NCBI RefSeq assembly: GCF_010122465.1
Contig: NZ_WLZY01000001.1
Span: 1 to 64,000 of the forward strand
Source of the DNA: Phytoactinopolyspora mesophila
GTDB lineage: Bacteria > Actinomycetota > Actinomycetes > Jiangellales > Jiangellaceae
Reading direction: 5' to 3'
DNA length: 64,000 nucleotides
Shown here: positions 34,126 through 57,868 of the stretch, one piece after another
How the letters are laid out: the number at the start of each line of letters is the position of its first letter
Position numbering within the stretch: position 1 is the stretch's first letter
Notes under the pieces: model-generated
The model's database searches: none
Told to the model about the DNA's origin: nothing
Seen by the model: the letters and a program-made list of their open reading frames with translations, nothing else
Position numbers and translations under genes: made by a program

Positions 34126-34212
34126 TAGGGGCGATTATCGCACCTCGCATCGGACGTGCAACGACACGCATGGTGCGGTGGGTGTAAGGCGGTAACGGCA
34201 AGGAGGCCACCG

Positions 34213-35409
34213 ATGGCGTACTACCGGCACGTGGGCGAGATCCCACCGAAAAGACATACCCAGCATCGCCGGCCCGACGGCGGGCTCTACTACGAGGAGC
34301 TGATGGGTGAGGAGGGTTTCTCCAGCGACTCGTCACTGCTGTATCACCAGAACATTCCGTCGGCTATCGCCGATGCCCAGCCGTGGGAGTTGCCGGATCA
34401 GTCACTGACGGCGAATCATCCGCTGAAACCCCGGCACCTGAAGTTGCACAATCTCTTCGAGGGCCAGGAGTGGAAAGCCCTCGACGTGGTGAACGGCCGA
34501 CGGCTCGTGCTCGGCAACGCCGATGTGCGCATCTCCTACGTCGTCGCGGGTGAGACGTCCCCGCTCTACCGCAACGCCATCGGTGACGAGTGTGTGTACG
34601 TCGAATCCGGATCCGGTGTGGTGGAGACCGTGTTCGGTGTGCTGCCGGTACGTCCGGGCGATCAAGTTGTGCTGCCGCGGGCCACGACACATCGCTGGGT
34701 ACCGAGCGCCGACGAACCACTGCGCGCGTACGTGATCGAGGCGAACTCACACATCGCGCCGCCCAAGCGGTACCTGTCTCGCTACGGCCAACTGCTCGAG
34801 CATGCTCCGTACTGCGAGCGTGATCTACACGGACCATCGGAGCCGTTGCTCGTGGACGGCGCGGATGTGGAGGTCCTGGTCAAGCATCGCGGGCCAACGG
34901 GGGTGGCCGGAACCCGCTTCGTGTATCCGCGGCATCCGTTCGATGTGGTCGGCTGGGACGGCTGTCTGTATCCCTACACGTTCAACATCTCGGACTTCGA
35001 GCCGATCACCGGGCGGGTGCACCAGCCGCCGCCTGTGCACCAGGTGTTCGAAGGGCATAACTTCGTCATCTGCAATTTCGTGCCGCGCAAGGTGGACTAT
35101 CACCCGTTGTCCATCCCGGTGCCGTACTACCACTCCAATGTGGATTCCGACGAGGTCATGTTCTACTGCGGCGGCAACTACGAAGCCCGCAAGGGTTCCG
35201 GCATCGGCCAGGGCTCCATCTCGTTGCACCCCGGAGGCTGGTCACACGGCCCGCAGCCTGGGGCTTACGAGGGCAGTATCGGCATGGAGCGCTCCGACGA
35301 GCTTGCGGTCATGGTCGATACGTTCCGTCCGCTGGACATAGGCGAGGGCGGATTCGCCTCGGAGGATCCGGAGTATGCATGGAGCTGGATCCGGAGGTCG
35401 CCAGGGTGA
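34213..35409 (+). CDS. hmgA: Homogentisate 1,2-dioxygenase
   Basis: Ring-opening dioxygenase of tyrosine/phenylalanine catabolism, an Fe(II) cupin enzyme producing maleylacetoacetate. The 398-residue protein has YYRHVGEIPPKRHTQ at its start, YRNAIGDECVYVESGSG in the first cupin, and the metal-ligand region YHSNVDSDEVMFYCGGNY with GSISLHPGGWSHGPQPG. AAGGAGG precedes ATG 34213. No fumarylacetoacetase or maleylacetoacetate isomerase gene is in the window. The next gene overlaps its stop. Confidence 0.94.
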   Translation: MAYYRHVGEIPPKRHTQHRRPDGGLYYEELMGEEGFSSDSSLLYHQNIPSAIADAQPWELPDQSLTANHPLKPRHLKLHNLFEGQEWKALDVVNGRRLVLGNADVRISYVVAGETSPLYRNAIGDECVYVESGSGVVETVFGVLPVRPGDQVVLPRATTHRWVPSADEPLRAYVIEANSHIAPPKRYLSRYGQLLEHAPYCERDLHGPSEPLLVDGADVEVLVKHRGPTGVAGTRFVYPRHPFDVVGWDGCLYPYTFNISDFEPITGRVHQPPPVHQVFEGHNFVICNFVPRKVDYHPLSIPVPYYHSNVDSDEVMFYCGGNYEARKGSGIGQGSISLHPGGWSHGPQPGAYEGSIGMERSDELAVMVDTFRPLDIGEGGFASEDPEYAWSWIRRSPG

Positions 35410-36278
35410 GGCAACGTGCCGAGCCGGAGCTGATGCAGGACCTGGTCGATGATGCCGGGCTCTTTCCCCCCACCGCGCTGAGCATGCCTGCGGCGGTGGC
35501 ACGGCACCGTGTGGACCAGTCCGGGCGGAGCCGGGTCCTGACCCACCGGTTTCTCTGCCCGGTTTCACGGGTGGCCGAGTTGTGCGCCGAACTGCGGGCC
35601 GGCGATCGCATCGACCTGGGTCTGATCGCCGACAACGGTCCGGACGGACTGGCACAGGCGGTGGCCGCGGCGACGGCCGATGAAGCGCTGCGGCTGGTCA
35701 GCGTCGAGTTTCCGCTGGCACGGACCGTGGAGAGCGATCCGCCGGCTGCTGTCGGTAGCGCCCTGGCGGTGATTCGGGAAGCGAAGGTCGCGGATACTGT
35801 CCCGGTGTTCATGGAGCCACGGGCGCTGGCGGACGTCGAAAGCCTGGCTCCAGCCGTCGCGCAACTGCAGGACGAACGACCGGTGGGCCTGAAACTGCGC
35901 TGTGGCGGTGTCCGGGCCGAGCTCTTCCCGTCCCCGGAACAGCTGGCTGCCGCGCTCATAGCCGTGACCCGCGCCGGTGTGGTGGTGAAGGCGACGGCCG
36001 GTCTGCACCATGCCGTTCGCTACACCGATCCATCTACGGGCTTCACCCACCACGGCTATCTGAACCTGCTGATGGCCACCGCCGAAGCGGTAAGCGGCAG
36101 ATCCGGTCTGGAAGAAGTCGCGGCAACGTTGCGCGTGACCGATCCGGCCACGCTGACCGCCAAAGCCGCGGCGCTGGATCCCGACCATGTGGCCAGGACC
36201 CGCGCAGTGCTCGTCAGCTACGGATCATGCAGCACCAGCACGCCACTCACCGAGGCACGGGTGCTCGGGCTCACCTAA
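35406..36278 (+). CDS. Conserved protein of unknown function coupled to hmgA
   Basis: A 290-residue soluble protein with no recognised enzyme motif. The repeating pattern of strands and helices (LGLIADNGPDGLAQAV, VPVFMEPRALADVE, GLKLRCGGVRAELFPS, VVVKATAGLHHAVRY) suggests a (beta/alpha)-barrel-like fold. GFTHHGYLNLLMA and the early LVDDAGLFPP look conserved and may mark a binding site. GTG 35406 overlaps the hmgA stop (GTGA) with GGAGGT 8 nt upstream, so it is made together with HmgA and probably serves aromatic catabolism. I cannot assign a reaction. Confidence 0.65.
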   Translation: MRQRAEPELMQDLVDDAGLFPPTALSMPAAVARHRVDQSGRSRVLTHRFLCPVSRVAELCAELRAGDRIDLGLIADNGPDGLAQAVAAATADEALRLVSVEFPLARTVESDPPAAVGSALAVIREAKVADTVPVFMEPRALADVESLAPAVAQLQDERPVGLKLRCGGVRAELFPSPEQLAAALIAVTRAGVVVKATAGLHHAVRYTDPSTGFTHHGYLNLLMATAEAVSGRSGLEEVAATLRVTDPATLTAKAAALDPDHVARTRAVLVSYGSCSTSTPLTEARVLGLT

Positions 36279-36335
36279 CCCATGATCATGAACACTAGAT
36301 GACCACATTCGTCAATTAGTGTTCATGATCATGGG
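36279..36335. repeat. Long inverted repeat (GATCATGA type) before the fusion gene
   Basis: CCCATGATCATGAACACTA (36279-36297) pairs perfectly with 36317-36335 over 19 bp. Its arm shares the 16-mer CATGATCATGAACACT with the repeat at 7131, 29 kb away, while the loops differ. It starts right after the preceding stop codon. Confidence 0.88.
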
Positions 36336-36357
36336 TGGGTGAGGGTGGCACGCGGGT

Positions 36358-38952
36358 ATGGTGGAGCCGATGCTGAGCAAGCGTGCCACCGTCACGCGAG
36401 CTACCGCCCTCGAGTTCCGGGTCCCGTCGTCTCGGGGCGCTCGCGTCGACGGTTCTTACGAACACAACGTCCTGATCCGGATCGAGGCCGGCATGCGGGG
36501 CCGGACGATCGAGGGAATCGGTGAGGCCTCCCCGCGCGGGCGCGCCTTGACCGGCGATTCGAAAAGTCGGTCGTGGCGGTTCCTCCGCTCTGCCCTCCAA
36601 CAGCTGGAGGGCACCACACTGCGTGCACGGGCCGAGCCTGCCCGGGCGGATCTCGTGGATATCATGGCGGGCTTGCGTTCGCTGGCGGCGACGGTGTCGA
36701 AGGAGCCGGAAGCCGCGGCGTTCCGCGGGATGCTCGCCGGCGTCGACGCGGCGTTGGCCGACCTCGCGGCCAAAACGGTGGGCACGGCGCTGGCGGACTT
36801 CCTGGGTGGAACGCGGCGTCCGGTCGAGGCTGCCGCCGTGGTGCGCGCACACCGTACGTCGAGCCGGCTGCTCCGTGATCTGCGCGCGTGTGCCGGATAC
36901 CCGGCGATCAATCTCGTCGACATCGCCGGCCCCGACGCCGCAATCGATGCAGCGGCGACGGCAGCCAGTGTGGCCGGCCTCGGTACGCCGCTCTGGCTTG
37001 GGCTGGGGGGAACACTGACCCGCGCTCAAGGCGAGAAGCTCGTCGAGATGCTGGCCGACCGTATGAGCGCCGGTGAACTGCCCCGTCATCTGGTGCTGCA
37101 GCCTCCGCACGACTCGGTCACACCGGCCGACCTGGTTGAATGGCAGGCGATCGCCGACGTCAAGGTGCCGCCGGATCCGTCCGGTCCGGGCATCGTGTTG
37201 ATGGGCGACGCCGCCTGTGCCGCGACCGCCAAGAAGCTGGCCGGAAGCGGGCTGAAGAAGATCAGCCTGAATGTCCAGCGGGTGGGCGGCGCGCTGGCGG
37301 TCCTGGATGTCGCCCGGCAACTTCACACCGAGTACGCCGACGTCCGCCTGGGGCTGTCCACGGTGCCCCATATATCGGGGGTCGGCGCATGCACGATGGC
37401 CGAACTGGCGACCGCGTTGCCCAACTTGGACTATTGCGCGCTCTCCAGTTCGATCATCAGCGGGCCCGTCACCTGCGTGCCACCCGTCGAACACGACGAC
37501 ACACGTCGGATCCGTCCCGGGGAAGGGCCAGGCCTCGGCGGCACCGCCGTGCTCACACCCGCCACCCATTTGCTGACCCGCCATCTCGAGTGGCCGCGGC
37601 GCCGGGCACCGCGCTCGACGTACGGCGGTCTGCCGGTGAACAGGTTCGACACCGGCCCGCTGCAGCCGTTCACGACCCAGCGCGGCGAGATCAGGTCCGC
37701 CAGTCCGCTGATCGAGCGCGCCGCCCTGATACGGGGCCTGAATACCAGGCGGTTCTCCCGCGACGTCGTGATGGTGGAACACCCTCGCCTGGCCGAACCG
37801 TTGTGTTTCACGCCGAGCAAGACGGCTTCCACGGGTACCCCTGCGCATCGAGCCACGGTGGACAAGGAGCTGACCCGCCGGCTCCTCCAGGCTGCCGGTG
37901 TTCCGGTTCCACAGGGCGCGTCGTTCAGCGCGGCGAAGCCCGAACGGGCTGTCCAGTACGCCGCGTCGCTGGGTAAGCCGGTCGTCGTGAAACCCAAGAA
38001 CGGCATCCACGGGACCGGCGTCTCCACGGACCTGCGGACCGAACAAAGCGTGCGGGCGGCCATCGAATCGTTGGCGGGCACCAAATTCGGCAGCCAGCCG
38101 TTCGTCGTCGAGACCTACGTCCCGGGTGACGACTACCGCCTGCTCGTGGTCGGCGACCAGGTCGTCTCAGTGGTGCTGAAGAAGCCGGCGTCGGTGACGG
38201 GCGACGGCCGGTCCAGCGTTGTCGATCTCGTCATCGAGAAGAACAAGGAACGCCTGGAGAATCCGCACACACGTAGTTGCCTCCTCAGATTCGATACTGC
38301 CGCGATGCACTGGCTGCAGCGCCAGGAGCTGACCCCGGACAGCGTGCCCGAACAAGGCCGGCACGTACGTCTGGGCAGTGCCGGGAACATCGCCGCCGGC
38401 GGCGAGAGCATCGAAGTGCTCGACCAGACCCACCCGAGCATCCTCGACCTCGCGGTGCGAGCCGTGCACGCGGTACCCGGCCTCGACCATGCCGGGGTAG
38501 ACCTCATGGGAGACCATGTGCGCGGCACCGACGAGGCCGCGGCGATCATCGAGATCAACGGCAATCCCGCAACCGCCTTCAATCACTTCCCACTCTCCGG
38601 CACCCCGCGGGACGTCTCGAGTCATCTGGTTCTTCGGGGCTGTGAGCTGGCCGGATTCGATCCCGGCCCGCCCCGGGACGTGCTCTCGATGCGGATCGAG
38701 ATCGAAGGGCGCGTCCAGGGTGTCGGCTACCGGCAGTGGTTCGCGCGGCTGGCCGAAGACAACGGGCTGGCGGGCTCCATCCGGAACCTGCCGGGAGGCG
38801 GGGTCGAGGCGCTGGTGACGGGCGGGCCGCACGCCGCATGGGTAGTGGCGGCCGCGGCGATCAACGGCCCGCGACGCGCGTCGGTTCTGCAAGTGACCAC
38901 AACCCATGTGAGCGGCGTCGAGCCGGCCAACCGATTCGAGGTGCACCGGTGA
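36358..38952 (+). CDS. Enolase-like / ATP-grasp / acylphosphatase fusion protein
   Basis: An 864-residue three-part protein. Residues about 1-400 align in layout with the dipeptide-epimerase branch of the enolase superfamily, but the expected Lys pair, DxN, VEQP, ADES and NIKL motifs read INLVDI, LGLGG, LVLQPP, GDAA and ISLNVQ, so most catalytic and metal residues are gone. Residues about 495-775 are a cyanophycin-synthetase-like ATP-grasp domain (VDKELTRRLLQAAGVPVP, VVVKPKNGIHGTGV with K545, ETYVPGDDYRLLVVG, IIEINGNP at 731-737) that looks active. Residues about 777-864 are an acylphosphatase with the catalytic Arg in GRVQGVGYR (R792) and Asn in RNLPGG (N810). Probably an amino-acid-type ligase. 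ATG 36370 is an alternative start. Confidence 0.75.
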   Translation: MVEPMLSKRATVTRATALEFRVPSSRGARVDGSYEHNVLIRIEAGMRGRTIEGIGEASPRGRALTGDSKSRSWRFLRSALQQLEGTTLRARAEPARADLVDIMAGLRSLAATVSKEPEAAAFRGMLAGVDAALADLAAKTVGTALADFLGGTRRPVEAAAVVRAHRTSSRLLRDLRACAGYPAINLVDIAGPDAAIDAAATAASVAGLGTPLWLGLGGTLTRAQGEKLVEMLADRMSAGELPRHLVLQPPHDSVTPADLVEWQAIADVKVPPDPSGPGIVLMGDAACAATAKKLAGSGLKKISLNVQRVGGALAVLDVARQLHTEYADVRLGLSTVPHISGVGACTMAELATALPNLDYCALSSSIISGPVTCVPPVEHDDTRRIRPGEGPGLGGTAVLTPATHLLTRHLEWPRRRAPRSTYGGLPVNRFDTGPLQPFTTQRGEIRSASPLIERAALIRGLNTRRFSRDVVMVEHPRLAEPLCFTPSKTASTGTPAHRATVDKELTRRLLQAAGVPVPQGASFSAAKPERAVQYAASLGKPVVVKPKNGIHGTGVSTDLRTEQSVRAAIESLAGTKFGSQPFVVETYVPGDDYRLLVVGDQVVSVVLKKPASVTGDGRSSVVDLVIEKNKERLENPHTRSCLLRFDTAAMHWLQRQELTPDSVPEQGRHVRLGSAGNIAAGGESIEVLDQTHPSILDLAVRAVHAVPGLDHAGVDLMGDHVRGTDEAAAIIEINGNPATAFNHFPLSGTPRDVSSHLVLRGCELAGFDPGPPRDVLSMRIEIEGRVQGVGYRQWFARLAEDNGLAGSIRNLPGGGVEALVTGGPHAAWVVAAAAINGPRRASVLQVTTTHVSGVEPANRFEVHR

Positions 38953-39914
38953 GCCTCACCAGCTTGGAACGATTTGTCACCGACCGGCTCTCGCAACGTG
39001 TGCGGGCGAGCTCGGCGGTGCTCGAATACACCGCGCGAGAGCGCGGCCTCGAGACCGAACGGCTGAGCCGGGTGCTCGTTCTCGTGCATCTGCCGGACGC
39101 GGCGCTCACCTTCCACGGCATGAACGGACCCGATTCCAGTGAGGCCGGCCGCGTGTTCCGCACGATCCGCGACGGGCAACGATCGCTGCTCGACGCACGC
39201 GGCATTCCGGTGCCGCGGTGGGCGGTTTTCGCGCCGACGCAGTACAAGCGGGCCGAGCGTTTCGCCGCCCAGCTGGGCGGCCGGGTCAGCGTGAGGCCGG
39301 CCAGGCTGCGGGTTGGCGGGCGTGGAGCGGCCAGCGCCGGCGCCGACGAGTTCCGTTCGTTGTGGCGGCGGGCCGTCGGAGCCTACGAAACAACGAAAGG
39401 CGGGCCGGTGCTGGTCGAGGAGGAAGTGACCGGGCAGCGGCTGCACGTGTTCGTGGTTGACGGCGCTGTGGTCGCGGCGACCCGGTTCAGGGGCGACGAT
39501 CCTGCCGCCGTGCACCGGTTGATCAGCCGTGAATCCTCGATGACGGGCGAGGCGGTAGACGTGACCGACGAGGTCGACCCACGAGTGGCCGAGCTGGCGG
39601 TCGACGCCCTGCGCGCGGTTCCCGGTTTGCCGTACGGCGGGGTGGATCTCGTGATGCCAACGGCGGACGCCAACGACGCCGGTCCGCCACGGGCCGTCGT
39701 CACACACCTTGATCCAGCTCCCGCGCCGGTGGCGCATTTTCCCGTGCACGGGCCCCCTCGTGACGTCGCCGGTGCCATCCTGGACCATTACGTGACGTCG
39801 CCTCGATGGCGTACGGCCCGCGAGACCAGCCACCGTGCGCTGGCGATACACAGCGCCGCGGCTGCTGAGCCACTGCATACCGGATCCTTCGCGCCTATTC
39901 GCGCGGGTTCTTAA
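38949..39914 (+). CDS. Second ATP-grasp-like protein, apparently degenerate
   Basis: A 321-residue protein overlapping the fusion gene by GTGA. It follows the same ATP-grasp outline (LLDARGIPVPRWAVF, VLVEEEVTGQRLHVFVVDGAVV, VDVTDEVDPRVAELAVDAL, HFPVHGPPRDVAGAIL). The nucleotide-binding VVVKP stretch is SVRPAR, and the metal-binding EINGNP is THLDPAP, so ATP use is doubtful. Likely a diverged paralogue of the neighbouring ligase domain, acting as a regulatory or structural partner. It ends 60 bp before the convergent PLP-enzyme gene. Confidence 0.6.
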   Translation: MSLTSLERFVTDRLSQRVRASSAVLEYTARERGLETERLSRVLVLVHLPDAALTFHGMNGPDSSEAGRVFRTIRDGQRSLLDARGIPVPRWAVFAPTQYKRAERFAAQLGGRVSVRPARLRVGGRGAASAGADEFRSLWRRAVGAYETTKGGPVLVEEEVTGQRLHVFVVDGAVVAATRFRGDDPAAVHRLISRESSMTGEAVDVTDEVDPRVAELAVDALRAVPGLPYGGVDLVMPTADANDAGPPRAVVTHLDPAPAPVAHFPVHGPPRDVAGAILDHYVTSPRWRTARETSHRALAIHSAAAAEPLHTGSFAPIRAGS

Positions 39915-39973: not shown

Positions 39974-42076
39974 TCATCGGCAGCTTCCGCAGCCACAGTA
40001 GACACCGGGGTCCAGATCGAGGTGCCGCACGATCAGGCCGAGCTTGTGCAGCGCGTCCGTGCTGTCAGCCAGGATGCGCTCGATCCGTTCGGTCCACACC
40101 CGGCCGCGGGTGTGGTCGAAGACGACCTCGGACACCGTAGGTGCTCCGATCGCGATGCGCAGTCCGCCGATCCACTCGTCGTCGTGCCGGTAGATCCGCA
40201 CCGGCTGGCCGAGCTGGAACGTGCGCCCTAGCACGGAGTCGTCGGCCGGTACCCGGTCGTGCAGGTCCTGCGCCAGCAGGCGGTGGGCTACCCGGGCTTC
40301 GTCCATGGTGAGTGGCCCGCCGTCCGGTTTGACCACCAAGAACGTGAAGATCGTCGGAAGGTCGTCAAGACCGCGCCGATCAGGTGCCGGAATCTGGGTG
40401 TACGGGCTTTCGACAAGTGTGACCCACGGGGTGCGCTCGAGGATCGCCCGAAGGCCGGACGCCAGCAGGCGAAGGACCTCATCGCGGATCTCGGGGGAGA
40501 CGTTGTGGAATGAGCGCATCTCGGCCAGTGCCGCTTCCCAGCGCAGCAGCAGCCCGACGTTCAGCCCCGAGCGGGCGGTGGCATGCAGGTCGGTCAACGC
40601 GGTGGGAACGTCGGCGCGCGTCAGGTACTCGGCCAACCCGGCGGGGAGCCGGCGTCCGCGGGCGAGGCGAGACACTAGCTCAGCAGGGATGATGACTGCG
40701 CCCGAGAACGGCGGGCCCCCGAAGAACTTGGAACCCGTGACGATCACGATGTTGCCGTCGCTGAGATGTTCGACGGCGGTGTGCTGGTCCACTCGCATCT
40801 GGGCGGCATCGACGACGACATCGAGACGGTCGCCGTACCGCTGCCGCCAACGGCGCACCGTGTCCGCGCGTGGCAACCGGATGCCGGTCTTGGAGCCCTC
40901 GACGACGTGCACCAGTGTCCGGTGCTGTCCGGCGTGCGAGGCCATCGCCTGCTCGATGGCGGCTTCGAGGGCGTCCGGAGCGAGCATGGCGCCGTGCTCG
41001 TCGCGGAGGTCGACCACCGAGGTGACTACCTGGTTTTCATCGAGGCCGGCGATCGGTTCGCCGGCGTGGCCGGCGCGGCCTGACGGCAATCGATCACAGA
41101 AATGGCGTCCGGCCGCCGCCTGCAGGCCGCCACTGCCGATCTCGTGTTGTCCGACGACGATGGAGTGAACTGGCTCGCCGGTGCCCAGTGCTATCAGCAG
41201 CGCCACGAGTTCGGCGTCGGTTCCCGACGGCGTGAAGACCACTTCGACATCGGCGGTGACGCCCAGCGCCGCAAGCAGGGTGTGTCGCATCACCGCCGCG
41301 TGTGCATCCGCGACCGGCCCCAGCCGGTCGGCCAATGCCGCCTCGATCAGCTGCTGGCGCAGCGTCGTGGCCGCTTCGAACGCACGCGGTGTGGGGGACG
41401 AGGCGGTGCACGAGCCCAACAGGCAGGTCCACGGCGTCGGGCTCGGTGGTATTCCGTAGGAGTTCAGCCCGGAGCGCCAGTCGATGGTCTGCCGGCTGTC
41501 GCCGCCGCTGGCGAGGAGTACGTCCGTGGGCGCGGCCAGCGGCAGCGCCCGGGCAGCGCGGGTGATCTCGTTGTCCGGGCAGGGCTCCGACGATTTGTCG
41601 CGCTCGTGAAGGAACTGGGCGATGTGTGCCGCGATGGCCCGCGCGGTGCCCGGTGCATCAAGATTGTCGGCGAGCCCGAGAATCTCCGTCGCGCGTTCGG
41701 AGACCGGTGAGAAGGCCGCGAGGGCTGCCGGCTCGCCACGTGCGGTCAGACCGGTGGCGCCGAAACACACCGCCGTCGCGTGTGCCAGGATCCGCTCGGC
41801 CCAGCCGGTGTGGACGTTGCCAGTGGCAGTGAGCTCGATGGCCTCACGGAGCACCAGAGCGGCACCGGTGACTGTGGCCGCGTTGTCCGGCCGCAAGATG
41901 ACGGTGGCGTCGGCGAGGACGAAGGACCGTTCCAGCATAGGGTCGATACGCACCGACAGTCCGGACAGCCGGGGGCCTATCTCCGGTAGTCCACACGCTT
42001 CGATGACGGGCCAGGGCACCGGTGGTGTCCGCCCGGAACTCTCCAGTACGGCGGGGGAAAGCGATGCGTCGGTCAC
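39974..42076 (-). CDS. PLP-dependent fold-type I protein with long N-terminal region
   Basis: A 700-residue protein. Residues about 1-200 match nothing I recognise. The remainder looks like an aminotransferase/desulfurase-type PLP enzyme: VVFTPSGTDAELVAL binds cofactor phosphate, VVVDAAQMRVD supplies the ring-contacting Asp, and TGSKFFGGPPFSGAV holds the probable Schiff-base lysine (K450). The C-terminus ends YCGCGSCR, a compact CxCxxC that could bind metal or serve in thiol chemistry. GTG 42076 overlaps the upstream decarboxylase stop (GTGA), so the two PLP proteins are co-produced. Reaction unknown. Confidence 0.65.
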   Translation of the reverse strand: MTDASLSPAVLESSGRTPPVPWPVIEACGLPEIGPRLSGLSVRIDPMLERSFVLADATVILRPDNAATVTGAALVLREAIELTATGNVHTGWAERILAHATAVCFGATGLTARGEPAALAAFSPVSERATEILGLADNLDAPGTARAIAAHIAQFLHERDKSSEPCPDNEITRAARALPLAAPTDVLLASGGDSRQTIDWRSGLNSYGIPPSPTPWTCLLGSCTASSPTPRAFEAATTLRQQLIEAALADRLGPVADAHAAVMRHTLLAALGVTADVEVVFTPSGTDAELVALLIALGTGEPVHSIVVGQHEIGSGGLQAAAGRHFCDRLPSGRAGHAGEPIAGLDENQVVTSVVDLRDEHGAMLAPDALEAAIEQAMASHAGQHRTLVHVVEGSKTGIRLPRADTVRRWRQRYGDRLDVVVDAAQMRVDQHTAVEHLSDGNIVIVTGSKFFGGPPFSGAVIIPAELVSRLARGRRLPAGLAEYLTRADVPTALTDLHATARSGLNVGLLLRWEAALAEMRSFHNVSPEIRDEVLRLLASGLRAILERTPWVTLVESPYTQIPAPDRRGLDDLPTIFTFLVVKPDGGPLTMDEARVAHRLLAQDLHDRVPADDSVLGRTFQLGQPVRIYRHDDEWIGGLRIAIGAPTVSEVVFDHTRGRVWTERIERILADSTDALHKLGLIVRHLDLDPGVYCGCGSCR

Positions 42077-43422
42077 GAATCGTAGCGGCTTTCGAGTTGA
42101 TCCAGCACGGCGACCTCGACGTCGGCCCCGGCTTCCAGGCGTGACGTGACGCCGTACAGGGTGGCGCCGTTGTCTGCGGACCCGGCCGGTGGGGCGTCGT
42201 GGGTGGCCCAGCGCAGATCATCGACGAACTCGTCGATCACCGGTACGTGCGTCGGGTTGACGATGAGATGGATACTGTCGGGGTCGCGCTGGCGGTCGAT
42301 CCGCCATTTGCGGGTCTCGAGCCGGTCAGCCACGGTCATCATGTCCACCTCGTCGGATCCGACGGCCAGCACACTCATGGGGGGATCGCCGATCACGTTC
42401 AGCTGCGGGATCGAGGCGATACCGTCTCGAAGCCGCTGGGTCGCCTGCATAACTGTGGAGAAGATCCGTCGGTAGCCTTCCCGGCCCTCGTACACGATGG
42501 CGGCCCAGGCGCCGGCGATCGCACCGCCCGGCCGGGTGCCGAGCAAGGTGGGCGAGGCGAGAATACCCCCGGGCCAGTCCGTGTAGGCCGCGAACTGGTA
42601 CCGACGCAGGCCCCGGTCGCGGTACAGGATCGTCGAGGATCCTTTCGGTCCGTAGCCGTACTTGTGCATATCGGCGGCGATGGACGTGACTCCCGGGACA
42701 CTGAAGTCGAACGCTGGGACCTGGTAGCCGAGTTCCCGCACGAACGGAAGAGCGAAGCCGCCGATGGTGGCATCGATGTGGAGGCCGACGTCCCGCCGGG
42801 CCGCGATGTCGGCGAGCTCTTCGACGGGATCGACGACGCCGTACGGGAAACAAGGCGCCGAGGCGCAGCCGAGGATGGTCGATCGGGACATCGCGGCGGC
42901 GAAGGCGGCTGGGTCCGCACCGTAGGTGTGGTCCACCGGCACCGGGACCGCCCGGACGCCGAGCAGGTCGGCAGCTTTCAGGAAAGCCGGATGAGCGGTG
43001 ACGGGCACGACCATCTCCGGCGCGGTGATTTCCGGGCGCTGCACGCGGGCCCGGTCGCGGTACGCCTTGACGGCGAGCACGATGCTTTCCGTGCCGCCCG
43101 AGGTCATGGTGCCGCCGGCCGTCCCGGGATCGGCGCCGAGCAGATCAAGGAGCATCCACACGACTTCCTTCTCCATGGTGGCCAGGCTAGGGAACGCGGT
43201 GGGGCCCAGGAGGTTCTCGGATGCGAACTGCTGGTAGGCCTCGTGTACGACGTCGTCGTGTTCGGACGCCGTGGAGTAGACGAGGCTCCAGATTCGCCCG
43301 CTGCGCCAGTCGACATCTCCGGAGCTCTTGGCACGCAGCCGGTCACGGAGTTCGCCGGCCGGCAGGCCGTGCGCTGGGAATCGGGAGAGAGGTTGATCAG
43401 CAGACCCCGGCGTTACGCTCAT
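42073..43422 (-). CDS. PLP-dependent decarboxylase/lyase of the sphingosine-phosphate-lyase type
   Basis: A 449-residue group II PLP enzyme. Motifs include TSGGTESIVLAVKAYRDRA, VTAHPAFLKAADLLG, HIDATIGGFALPF, the PLP lysine in DMHKYGYGPKGSS (K254), YTDWPGGILASPTLLGTRPG and a C-terminal IHLIVNPTH. The layout follows bacterial sphingosine-1-phosphate lyase more closely than glutamate decarboxylase, but no membrane anchor is present and substrate specificity is not inferable. ATG 43422 (MSVTPGS) follows GGGAG; the frame is open further upstream without protein-like content. First gene of the minus-strand pair. Confidence 0.78.
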   Translation of the reverse strand: MSVTPGSADQPLSRFPAHGLPAGELRDRLRAKSSGDVDWRSGRIWSLVYSTASEHDDVVHEAYQQFASENLLGPTAFPSLATMEKEVVWMLLDLLGADPGTAGGTMTSGGTESIVLAVKAYRDRARVQRPEITAPEMVVPVTAHPAFLKAADLLGVRAVPVPVDHTYGADPAAFAAAMSRSTILGCASAPCFPYGVVDPVEELADIAARRDVGLHIDATIGGFALPFVRELGYQVPAFDFSVPGVTSIAADMHKYGYGPKGSSTILYRDRGLRRYQFAAYTDWPGGILASPTLLGTRPGGAIAGAWAAIVYEGREGYRRIFSTVMQATQRLRDGIASIPQLNVIGDPPMSVLAVGSDEVDMMTVADRLETRKWRIDRQRDPDSIHLIVNPTHVPVIDEFVDDLRWATHDAPPAGSADNGATLYGVTSRLEAGADVEVAVLDQLESRYDS

Positions 43423-43732
43423 GTCCTGAATCGCGCTCCCTTCTCGGCAGCCGGGGCTGCCTGAAAATGACCTTTGACCTGCTGCATAGCCCAGTTCGGA
43501 CGGCCTCGCTGGATGATCGCGGTGGCTTGCCAAGCACCGACGGTGCCATCGGCGCGACTCGAAGTCAATCACCGACGTGATCATTTCGATATTCCAGCGT
43601 AATCGATTCGTTGTCTTTCGTTGCGATCTTCCGAACACACCCCCCGCAGCCCGTTCGGCAGGGGAAGTCCGCTCGGGACGCGGTACATGGCGGCACAATG
43701 GCACCAGATGAGATCGCGGGAGGTGGCCGAGC
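43423..43732. other. Divergent intergenic region decarboxylase / rhodanese
   Basis: A 310-base region with locally lower GC (43560-43650). The probable promoter of the decarboxylase gene lies at 43540-43568 on the minus strand. The rhodanese ribosome site GGGAGG is at the right end. I see no additional gene. Confidence 0.5.
43540..43568 (-). promoter_or_regulatory. Candidate promoter of the two PLP-enzyme genes
   Basis: On the minus strand TTGACT (43568-43563) and CACCGT (43545-43540) are 17 nt apart. Transcription would begin about 110 nt before ATG 43422. The -10 is a weak match. Confidence 0.35.
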
Positions 43733-44098
43733 GTGACCACGGCGGAGGAGATCGACGTGGCTACCGCATATGCGATGGTGCGCTCCGGTGACGTCGTTGT
43801 CGACGTACGTCTGCCGGAGGAGTACGCGAGCGGCCACGTGGCCGGGGCGGTGAACATCCCACTGCGAGAGTTGCCGGCGCGCATCGGAGAGCTTCCGCAC
43901 GGCCAGATCGTGACGGTGTGTTCCCTGGGCAACCGTTCACTCAGAGGCGCTCAAACGCTGGCCCGGCTCGGCCGGACAGCATTCTCCCTGCGCGGCGGTA
44001 CCAAGGCGTGGGAAGCCGCCGGTTTGCCCACCGTGGCCGGTCCGGAACCGGTGCGCGCGCGTCGTCGTAGGTTCCCGTGGCGGTGGTTCAGCCGATGA
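43733..44098 (+). CDS. Rhodanese-like domain protein
   Basis: A 121-residue single-domain rhodanese. VVVDVRLPEEYASGHVAGAVNIPL is the CH2A-type region, and the active-site loop VCSLGNRS carries Cys63, so sulfur transfer is possible. A basic Arg-rich C-terminus (ARRRRFPWRWFSR) follows. The GTG start has GGGAGG upstream. It is divergent from the decarboxylase gene; a role as sulfur donor to that locus is possible but unsupported. Confidence 0.85.
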   Translation: MTTAEEIDVATAYAMVRSGDVVVDVRLPEEYASGHVAGAVNIPLRELPARIGELPHGQIVTVCSLGNRSLRGAQTLARLGRTAFSLRGGTKAWEAAGLPTVAGPEPVRARRRRFPWRWFSR

Positions 44099-55183: not shown

Positions 55184-57868
55184 GTGGTCGATGTTGCTGA
55201 GACTCCTCGCCTGTTGTTGCTCGATGGTCATTCGCTGGCCTACCGGGCGTTCTTCGCGCTGCCAGTGGAGAATTTCTCCACCACCACCGGACAGCACACC
55301 AACGCCGTGTATGGCTTCACCTCGATGCTGATCAACGTGCTGCGAGATGAGGCGCCGACGCACGTGGCCGTCGCCTTCGACGTCTCCCGGCAGACGTTTC
55401 GCAACGAGATGTACCCGGAGTACAAGGCCAACCGGACCAGTTCGCCGGACGAGTTCAAAGGGCAGGTCGCCCTGATCAAGGAGATCCTCGCCGCGTTGCG
55501 TATACCGGCCATCGAGAAAGAAGGATTCGAGGCCGACGACGTCATCGCCACGCTGGCTCACCACGCGCAAGCGGATGGGCTGGATGTCCTCATCTGCACC
55601 GGCGACCGAGACACCTTCCAGCTCGTGAACGAACACGTCACCGTCTTGTACCCGAAGCGCGGTGTGTCCGACCTCTCGCGGATGACGCCGGATGCCGTGC
55701 AGGAGCGCTACGGCCTCAGCCCGGTTCAGTACCCCGATTTCGCTGCGCTGCGTGGCGACCCGTCGGACAATCTGCCGAACATTCCGAGCGTCGGAGAGAA
55801 GACGGCCGCCAAATGGGTGGTGCAGTTCGGCTCGCTGGAGCAGCTGGTCGAGCGCGCCGACGAAGTCAAGGGCAAGGCCGGCGATGCGCTGCGGGCACAC
55901 CTGGGACAGGTGATGACCAACCGACAGGTCACCGAGCTTGTTCGAGACGTCCCTCTGGAGGTGCGCACAGACAGCCTTGTACGCCAGTCATGGGACCGCG
56001 AGGAAGTCCACAGCGTCTTCGACGCGCTGCAGTTCCGGGTGCTGCGGGACCGTCTGTACCAGACCCTGGAGGCAGCGGAGCCAGAGGCGGAAGGCGGATA
56101 CGAGATCGAGGCCGTCCGGCTCGAGCCGGGAGAGGTGCGAGGGTGGCTCACCGAGCACGCGTCCACCGGTCGTACCGGCGTGTCGGTCCGCGGCATCTGG
56201 GCCCGGGCCAGCGGTTACGTCACGGAGGTAGCGCTGGCGGCGGCCGACTCAGCGGTGGCATGGTTCGAGACCGCCAAGCTGACGCCGGATGACGACGCCG
56301 CCTTGGCCGCGTGGCTGGCCGATCCGGAGCGTCCCAAGGTCATGCACGAAGCGAAGGGCCCACTGCATGCTCTTGCCGCGCGTGGCTGGCAAGTGTCCGG
56401 CTTGGCCGCCGATACCGCGTTGTCCGCGTTCATCGCGCTGCCGGGCCAGCGTTCTTACGACCTCGCGGACCTGGTGCTGCGCTTCGTCGGGCGGGAATTG
56501 CGCAGCGACAACACACCGGCGCAGGTGCAGCTTTCCCTCGATGGTGGGGACGAGCTGCAGCTCGGGCAGGACGAGGCCGTCCGGGCCCGCGCCGTCCTCG
56601 ATCTCGGTGACACGCTCGACGCCGAGCTGGCCAAGCGCGGCGGGCGTAAGCTCCTCGACGACGTCGAGCTGCCGTTGGTCGGTGTGCTGGCCAGTATGGA
56701 GCGCCGGGGGATCGCCGTTGATGTCGACTACCTCGAGGGGCTGGAATCCTCGTTCTCCTCGGCTGTGGCACAGGCGGCCGCGGACGCTTATGACGCGATC
56801 GGGCACGAAGTCAATCTGGGTTCGCCGAAGCAACTTCAGGTCGTGCTGTTCGAAGAACTCAACATGCCCAAGACGAAGCGCACCAAGACCGGCTACACAA
56901 CCGACGCGGAGGCGCTGGCCGAGCTTTATGCCAAGACCGAACACCCGTTCCTCGAGGCATTGCTGCGGCATCGTGACGCGGCGAAGCTACGCGTGACGGT
57001 CGAAGGGTTGCTGAAGTCCGTCGCGGACGACGGCCGGATCCACACCACGTTCCACCAGACCATCGCCGCCACCGGTCGGCTATCGTCCACCGACCCCAAC
57101 CTGCAGAACATCCCGATCCGTACCGCCGAAGGGCGGCGTATCCGGGAGGCCTTCGTGGTGGGCGAGGGGCACGAGAGCTTGCTGACGGCTGACTACAGCC
57201 AGATCGAGATGCGCATCATGGCTCACCTGTCGGACGACGAAGGCTTGATCGACGCCTTCAGTTCCGGGATGGATTTTCACTCGGTCACCGCGTCCCGTGT
57301 TTTCGGGGTTCCGGCTGAAGAAGTCACCGGCGAGATGCGGGCCAAGATCAAGGCGATGAACTATGGGCTCGCATATGGCCTGTCCGCGTACGGACTGTCG
57401 AAGCAGCTGACCATCGAGGTCTCCGAAGCCCAAACGTTGATGGACGAGTATTTCGAACGCTTCGGGGGCGTCCGCGACTATCTTCGTGAAATCGTGAAGC
57501 GTGCCTCGGCCGAGGGCTGGACCGAGACCATCCTCGGCCGGCGGCGCTACCTCCCGGATCTCACCAGCGACAATCGCCAGCGGCGTGAGATGGCCGAACG
57601 GATGGCGCTCAACGCGCCGATTCAAGGATCCGCCGCGGACATCATCAAGGTCGCGATGCTCGGAGTCGAGCGTGCGCTGAACAAGGAGGGTATGTCCTCG
57701 CGAATGCTCCTGCAGGTGCACGACGAGCTCGTTCTCGAGGTGGCACCCGGTGAACGCGACGCGGTTGAAGAGCTGGTCAGACGTGAGATGGGCGCCGCGC
57801 ATCAGCTGCGGGTGCCGCTCGAGGTTTCTGTCGGGTCTGGTGCCACGTGGCAGGACGCAGCTCACTAG
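55184..57868 (+). CDS. polA: DNA polymerase I
   Basis: An 894-residue family A polymerase used in repair and Okazaki-fragment processing. The 5'-nuclease domain (about 1-300) starts LLLLDGHSLAYRAFFALP, with FEADDVIATLA and CTGDRDTFQLV. The middle domain has lost the 3'-5' exonuclease carboxylates, as in many actinobacteria. The polymerase domain carries motif A LLTADYSQIEMRIMAHLS, motif B KAMNYGLAYGLSAYGLS, and motif C LLQVHDELVLE. Full length. Confidence 0.97.
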   Translation: MVDVAETPRLLLLDGHSLAYRAFFALPVENFSTTTGQHTNAVYGFTSMLINVLRDEAPTHVAVAFDVSRQTFRNEMYPEYKANRTSSPDEFKGQVALIKEILAALRIPAIEKEGFEADDVIATLAHHAQADGLDVLICTGDRDTFQLVNEHVTVLYPKRGVSDLSRMTPDAVQERYGLSPVQYPDFAALRGDPSDNLPNIPSVGEKTAAKWVVQFGSLEQLVERADEVKGKAGDALRAHLGQVMTNRQVTELVRDVPLEVRTDSLVRQSWDREEVHSVFDALQFRVLRDRLYQTLEAAEPEAEGGYEIEAVRLEPGEVRGWLTEHASTGRTGVSVRGIWARASGYVTEVALAAADSAVAWFETAKLTPDDDAALAAWLADPERPKVMHEAKGPLHALAARGWQVSGLAADTALSAFIALPGQRSYDLADLVLRFVGRELRSDNTPAQVQLSLDGGDELQLGQDEAVRARAVLDLGDTLDAELAKRGGRKLLDDVELPLVGVLASMERRGIAVDVDYLEGLESSFSSAVAQAAADAYDAIGHEVNLGSPKQLQVVLFEELNMPKTKRTKTGYTTDAEALAELYAKTEHPFLEALLRHRDAAKLRVTVEGLLKSVADDGRIHTTFHQTIAATGRLSSTDPNLQNIPIRTAEGRRIREAFVVGEGHESLLTADYSQIEMRIMAHLSDDEGLIDAFSSGMDFHSVTASRVFGVPAEEVTGEMRAKIKAMNYGLAYGLSAYGLSKQLTIEVSEAQTLMDEYFERFGGVRDYLREIVKRASAEGWTETILGRRRYLPDLTSDNRQRREMAERMALNAPIQGSAADIIKVAMLGVERALNKEGMSSRMLLQVHDELVLEVAPGERDAVEELVRREMGAAHQLRVPLEVSVGSGATWQDAAH

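Follow-up and report, generated by a model that had tools for sequence, protein, structure and literature searches.

We describe a three-domain fusion protein in Phytoactinopolyspora mesophila, which we take to be a salt-loving soil bacterium, with an N-terminal domain that is predicted to fold as a complete dipeptide-epimerase-type barrel of the enolase superfamily and has lost four of its five catalytic residues. The loss is shared by its closest relatives, the domain remains under constraint, the surrounding gene order is conserved, and the fused ATP-grasp ligase retains its catalytic motifs. We conclude that the N-terminal domain is probably a degenerate epimerase, derived from an epimerase–ligase of a surface-polymer system, that now serves a live ligase as a structural or allosteric module; we infer its inactivity and role, as well as the product of the system, from sequence.

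Domain layout and predicted fold

The window, which is the whole stretch of DNA that was analysed (64,000 nucleotides; contig NZ_WLZY01000001.1, positions 1 to 64,000), carries the fusion gene at 36358-38952 on the plus strand. The gene encodes 864 amino acids; as the orthologues start with ML or VL, the ATG at 36370 is probably the true start. The enolase-superfamily domain without catalytic residues (36358-37560, plus strand) covers approximately residues 1-400 and is followed by a cyanophycin-synthetase-type ATP-grasp ligase domain (37702-38673, plus strand; approximately residues 449-770) and an acylphosphatase domain (38680-38949, plus strand; approximately residues 775-862). A Pfam scan of the protein placed ATP-grasp families at around 502-620 and acylphosphatase (PF00708, 54.3 bits) at 779-861.

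As a single sequence, the N-terminal domain is barely recognizable: Pfam MR_MLE_N fell under its cutoff (E = 0.065) and the best PDB match was marginal (E = 0.028). Two paralogues on contig 3 of the same genome scored 45.2 and 29.1 bits against MR_MLE_C, above or near the cutoff, and a 31-sequence profile with the window domain as its first row matched the L-Ala-D/L-Glu epimerase 1jpm (E = 5e-24). AlphaFold2, given window residues 1-403 and 30 homologues drawn from named genome records, predicted a capping domain and a complete (beta/alpha) barrel (pLDDT 92.3, pTM 0.92); the homologous intact domain of P. alkaliphila was modelled with a pLDDT of 91.4. The top Foldseek match of the window model was the dipeptide epimerase 3q45 (E = 1.1e-18), 3jva and 1jpm were also matched, and dipeptide epimerases were the best or near-best PDB matches of both models. 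These results bear out the original prediction, made from the letters of the window, that the first 400 residues keep the fold pattern of dipeptide epimerases.

Catalytic residues in the window and across the family

Residues were mapped from an intact homologue onto the window domain, strand by strand, in an alignment supported by secondary structure. The expected K/R-x-K (R191 and K193 in the intact homologue) is N185/V187 in the window, D-x-N (D224 and N226) is G215/G217, the Glu (E257) is Q248 and the last Lys (K319) is N305; D295 is retained as D284, and E296 has become A285. Thus, among the three metal ligands (D-x-N, E and D/E), the first two are substituted, the catalytic lysine pair of strands 2 and 6 is absent, and D284 is the only one of the five catalytic residues that is left. 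The motifs in which these losses had originally been read (INLVDI, LGLGG, LVLQPP and ISLNVQ), and the choice of Asp284 in GDAA as the sole survivor, proved right in this mapping. Acids or lysines supplied by other segments would have contradicted that reading; in the strand-matched alignment of the window with the intact homologue, none was seen at the lost positions. Misalignment as the source of the apparent loss was rejected because the predicted strands of the window and P. alkaliphila models coincide one by one. As a control, we looked at seven ordinary members of the superfamily from this or related genomes, and all seven have the three metal-ligand acids.

The homologues came from five related genomes and from records of Phytoactinopolyspora, Haloechinothrix, Ruania, Nesterenkonia, Ilumatobacter, Halomonas and others; many of these hosts have halophile or alkaliphile names. 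The scan of the collection used the full-length alignment A2; alignment A1 had no sufficiently conserved stretch. All five residues (K, D, E, D, K) are present in 12 of the 47 related domains that were tabulated, and three or fewer in the other 35; in alignment A4, the catalytic columns of the 12 intact sequences are invariant. The tree places the window domain within a clade of seven degenerate domains (support 100/100), each of which has at most one of the five residues, so the loss is shared. The domain therefore combines homology to an enzyme, loss of catalytic residues and a loss common to orthologues, as expected of a pseudoenzyme. The distribution of intact and degenerate domains on the tree takes a minimum of three changes, a figure that rises when regain is disallowed. 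Frameshift artefacts were set aside as an explanation: the split copies of P. endophytica hold runs of N in the assembly and are thus not evidence of lesions.

In 395 genomes of the class, at least three species have a close relative of the intact form: P. halotolerans, P. limicola and P. alkaliphila, in which the intact domain is joined to CapA and ATP-grasp. In Ilumatobacter nonamiensis and Ruania rhizosphaerae, an intact domain stands in the same epimerase–ligase–acylphosphatase order as in the window. Two Haloechinothrix relatives of the CapA-fused type (L077, 20820-23273, and L078, 20854-23232, both minus strand) keep the three metal acids and have lost both lysines, which by sequence is another route to a putatively dead epimerase. 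The paralogue at locus L010 (2006-4585, minus strand) and its orthologues lack the segment of barrel strand 2, and the three-domain protein is still conserved in six species. A search of viral contigs with one paralogue as the query found no relatives that would indicate a viral origin.

Ligase, partner gene and genomic setting

The ATP-grasp domain matches PDB 7lgn (4.7e-36) and the NCBIfam cyanophycin synthetase model (4e-64), the latter with 217 bits, well short of the curated cut-off of 877 for the full-length model; the ATP-grasp part alone aligns. Judged by its motifs, the fused ligase looks fully working. It keeps VVVKP, VVE, GVD and EIN, including the Lys of VVVKPKNG and the E-x-N of EINGNP, and its catalytic residues are invariant over 15 homologues; the acylphosphatase domain retains the conserved Arg (GVGYR) and Asn (IRN). 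The partner gene (38949-39914, plus strand), which overlaps the fusion gene by 4 bp, encodes a divergent ATP-grasp protein. The motif table shows that its Lys is replaced by Arg (VSVRP) and its E-x-N is lost (THLD), and we predict that it is a pseudo-ligase. Partners of the same kind follow the other copies of the clade and have also lost the Lys and E-x-N.

Other Phytoactinopolyspora species share the order of the fusion gene, its partner and two convergent PLP-type genes (39974-43932). The nearer of the two (39974-42076, minus strand) encodes a 700-amino-acid protein that looks class-V-aminotransferase-like (TGSKFFGGPPFSG), carries an aminotransferase-like lysine motif and is 70-73% identical and syntenic in three other species; it had no Pfam or PDB sequence match and is a neighbour, at most a putative part, of the fusion system. 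The farther one (42073-43932, minus strand) is a PLP lyase of the sphingosine-1-phosphate lyase/MfnA decarboxylase group (PDB 5eud, 6e-103), a relative of sphingosine-1-phosphate lyase that occurs here in an actinobacterium. On the other side of the fusion gene, a near-perfect inverted repeat (36273-36341; predicted −47 kcal/mol as a single strand) separates it from the upstream gene and is a possible terminator or operator. The upstream region (34156-36278) holds a homogentisate-dioxygenase-like gene and then a 299-amino-acid gene without a family, with no homologues in the homologous loci that we compared.

The other paralogues of this genome are clustered on contig 3, apart from the window copy, which lies on contig 1 beside the PLP enzymes. 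Their cluster includes a sugar-transfer-associated ATP-grasp protein, CapA–ATP-grasp proteins, UDP-glucose dehydrogenase, an asparagine-synthase-like protein, gamma-glutamyltranspeptidase and an Asp/Glu racemase that is 86-90% conserved within the genus; related loci likewise contain CapA, Asp/Glu racemase and UDP-glucose dehydrogenase. Features of a polymer locus (CapA and a polymer-type ligase) thus surround the contig 3 paralogues, and it is these neighbours, on a contig other than that of the window copy, that suggest a polymer product. Contig 3 of the same assembly (G000) also carries an ATP-grasp homologue with an in-frame TAG (55232-56092, minus strand), possibly a pseudogene.

Possible role of the degenerate barrel

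The open reading frame itself says nothing about the domain, because the downstream ligase forces it to stay open. By the Nei–Gojobori method, comparison of the window protein with four members of its clade gives a dN/dS of 0.41-0.54 in the dead domain; the ligase of the same chain has 0.17-0.37 (0.19-0.37 against those four), and intact domains have 0.15-0.21. The values are rough because dS (1.0-1.6) is near saturation. The dead domain is under purifying selection that, by this rough estimate, is about twice as relaxed as that on the ligase. The original description, a conserved pseudoenzyme attached to a working ligase, is supported at the level of sequence and predicted fold by the shared loss, the intact fold, a dN/dS below 1 and the conserved ATP-grasp and acylphosphatase residues; the word ‘conserved’ has to be qualified for a domain that evolves at about twice the rate of its ligase. 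We found no clade-specific cluster of residues marking an allosteric interface.

The main rival of a structural or allosteric module is a relic: a domain that has no function left and persists only because the ligase behind it, to which it is fused at the N terminus, has to be made and to fold. Selection that is relaxed relative to intact copies fits such a relic, as do the ragged loss, with Q, R, E or H taking the place of the Glu in different orthologues, and the absence of most of strand 2 in other degenerate clades. However, every strand and helix is still predicted with high confidence, near-invariant residues persist (R21, P23, G55, D135, L149, G150, G310 and G311), dN/dS is clearly below 1 and, of the six genomes of the group that were searched, five retain the type found in the window, with up to three copies per genome; we consider a mere relic unlikely. 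The barrel might instead have turned to other residues for a new function in catalysis or binding. Enolase-superfamily barrels are generally adaptable and D358/Y359 are retained in most members of the clade, but no new conserved acid/base set appears at the strand ends and several orthologues have G, E or Q in place of D284 itself, which makes this improbable.

The degenerate domain could also serve as a subunit of hetero-oligomers with an intact epimerase–ligase paralogue of the same cell, and P. halotolerans, P. limicola and P. alkaliphila each have one intact copy beside degenerate ones. As a general explanation this is very improbable: no intact form was found in the genome of the window (about 99.5% complete), P. 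endophytica or P. halophila, all of which have degenerate copies, so the dead domain can apparently do without an intact partner in its own cell.

In the module explanation, which we favour, the N-terminal domain would be a paralogue, now degenerate, of a 1,1-proton-transfer epimerase of the dipeptide-epimerase type (muconate-lactonizing-enzyme subgroup) and would derive from the epimerase–ligase of a surface-polymer system in haloalkaliphiles. Its intact relatives join such an epimerase to an ATP-grasp ligase, in some cases also to an acylphosphatase or CapA domain. They probably set the D/L configuration of an amino acid for an acidic cell-surface peptide polymer and probably ligate it by way of an acyl-phosphate. 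After duplication, the Phytoactinopolyspora copy would have lost the metal site and both lysines, and its barrel would then have been retained in a structural or allosteric capacity by the still-active ligase. This ligase, in turn, would work together with the adjacent pseudo-ligase. Dipeptide epimerases hold their substrate through Mg2+ and the Lys pair. As all but one of these positions are gone, the substrate-holding role that the original prediction had offered is not supported for the window clade, and the old site is unlikely to hold a substrate; the allosteric role that it named as the other option, or a structural one, is possible.

To our knowledge, pseudoenzymes of the enolase superfamily have been little described. 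A search of open-licence literature turned up no description of this fusion; the likeliest place for a precedent is the 2009 amidoligase survey of Iyer and colleagues. Because intact and dead versions occur in the same domain order and losses fall at several points of the tree, the family is well suited to asking how a dead enzyme domain serves the live enzyme fused to it; it also points to a peptide-polymer system of haloalkaliphiles that is as yet uncharacterised. Tentatively, epimerase–ligase fusions could represent an undescribed peptide-ligase system of mostly halophilic or alkaliphilic bacteria that radiated into active and many inactive forms, in which inactive barrels and inactive ligase partners tune live ATP-grasp ligases that build a mixed D/L surface peptide.

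Among known systems, the lasso-peptide epimerase MslH has a calcineurin-like fold (PMC10406935), and the CapA-type domains of related proteins match its NCBIfam model weakly (1e-12 to 1e-18), far under the curated cut-off of 700 bits; MslH is unrelated to the enolase fold. With the teichuronopeptide and poly-gamma-glutamate systems of alkaliphiles (CapA/PGA_cap, TupA; PMC8153356), the relatives share CapA, UDP-glucose dehydrogenase and Asp/Glu racemase, gamma-glutamyltranspeptidase is near the cluster in the genome of the window, and many hosts are halophiles or alkaliphiles by name; the window copy, however, lies away from that cluster. The ligase resembles cyanophycin synthetase and GshAB in its ATP-grasp domain (approximately 270 residues aligned, motifs kept), but cyanophycin synthetase models cover the window protein only at model positions of around 200-468 of 871, and acylphosphatase and pseudo-epimerase domains are present instead. 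The dipeptide epimerases of the MLE subgroup (1jpm, 3q45 and 3jva) share with the window domain the capping domain and barrel, the strand order and the positions of the motifs; unlike them, the window domain has neither D-x-N, nor E, nor the two catalytic lysines, and is joined to a ligase and an acylphosphatase.
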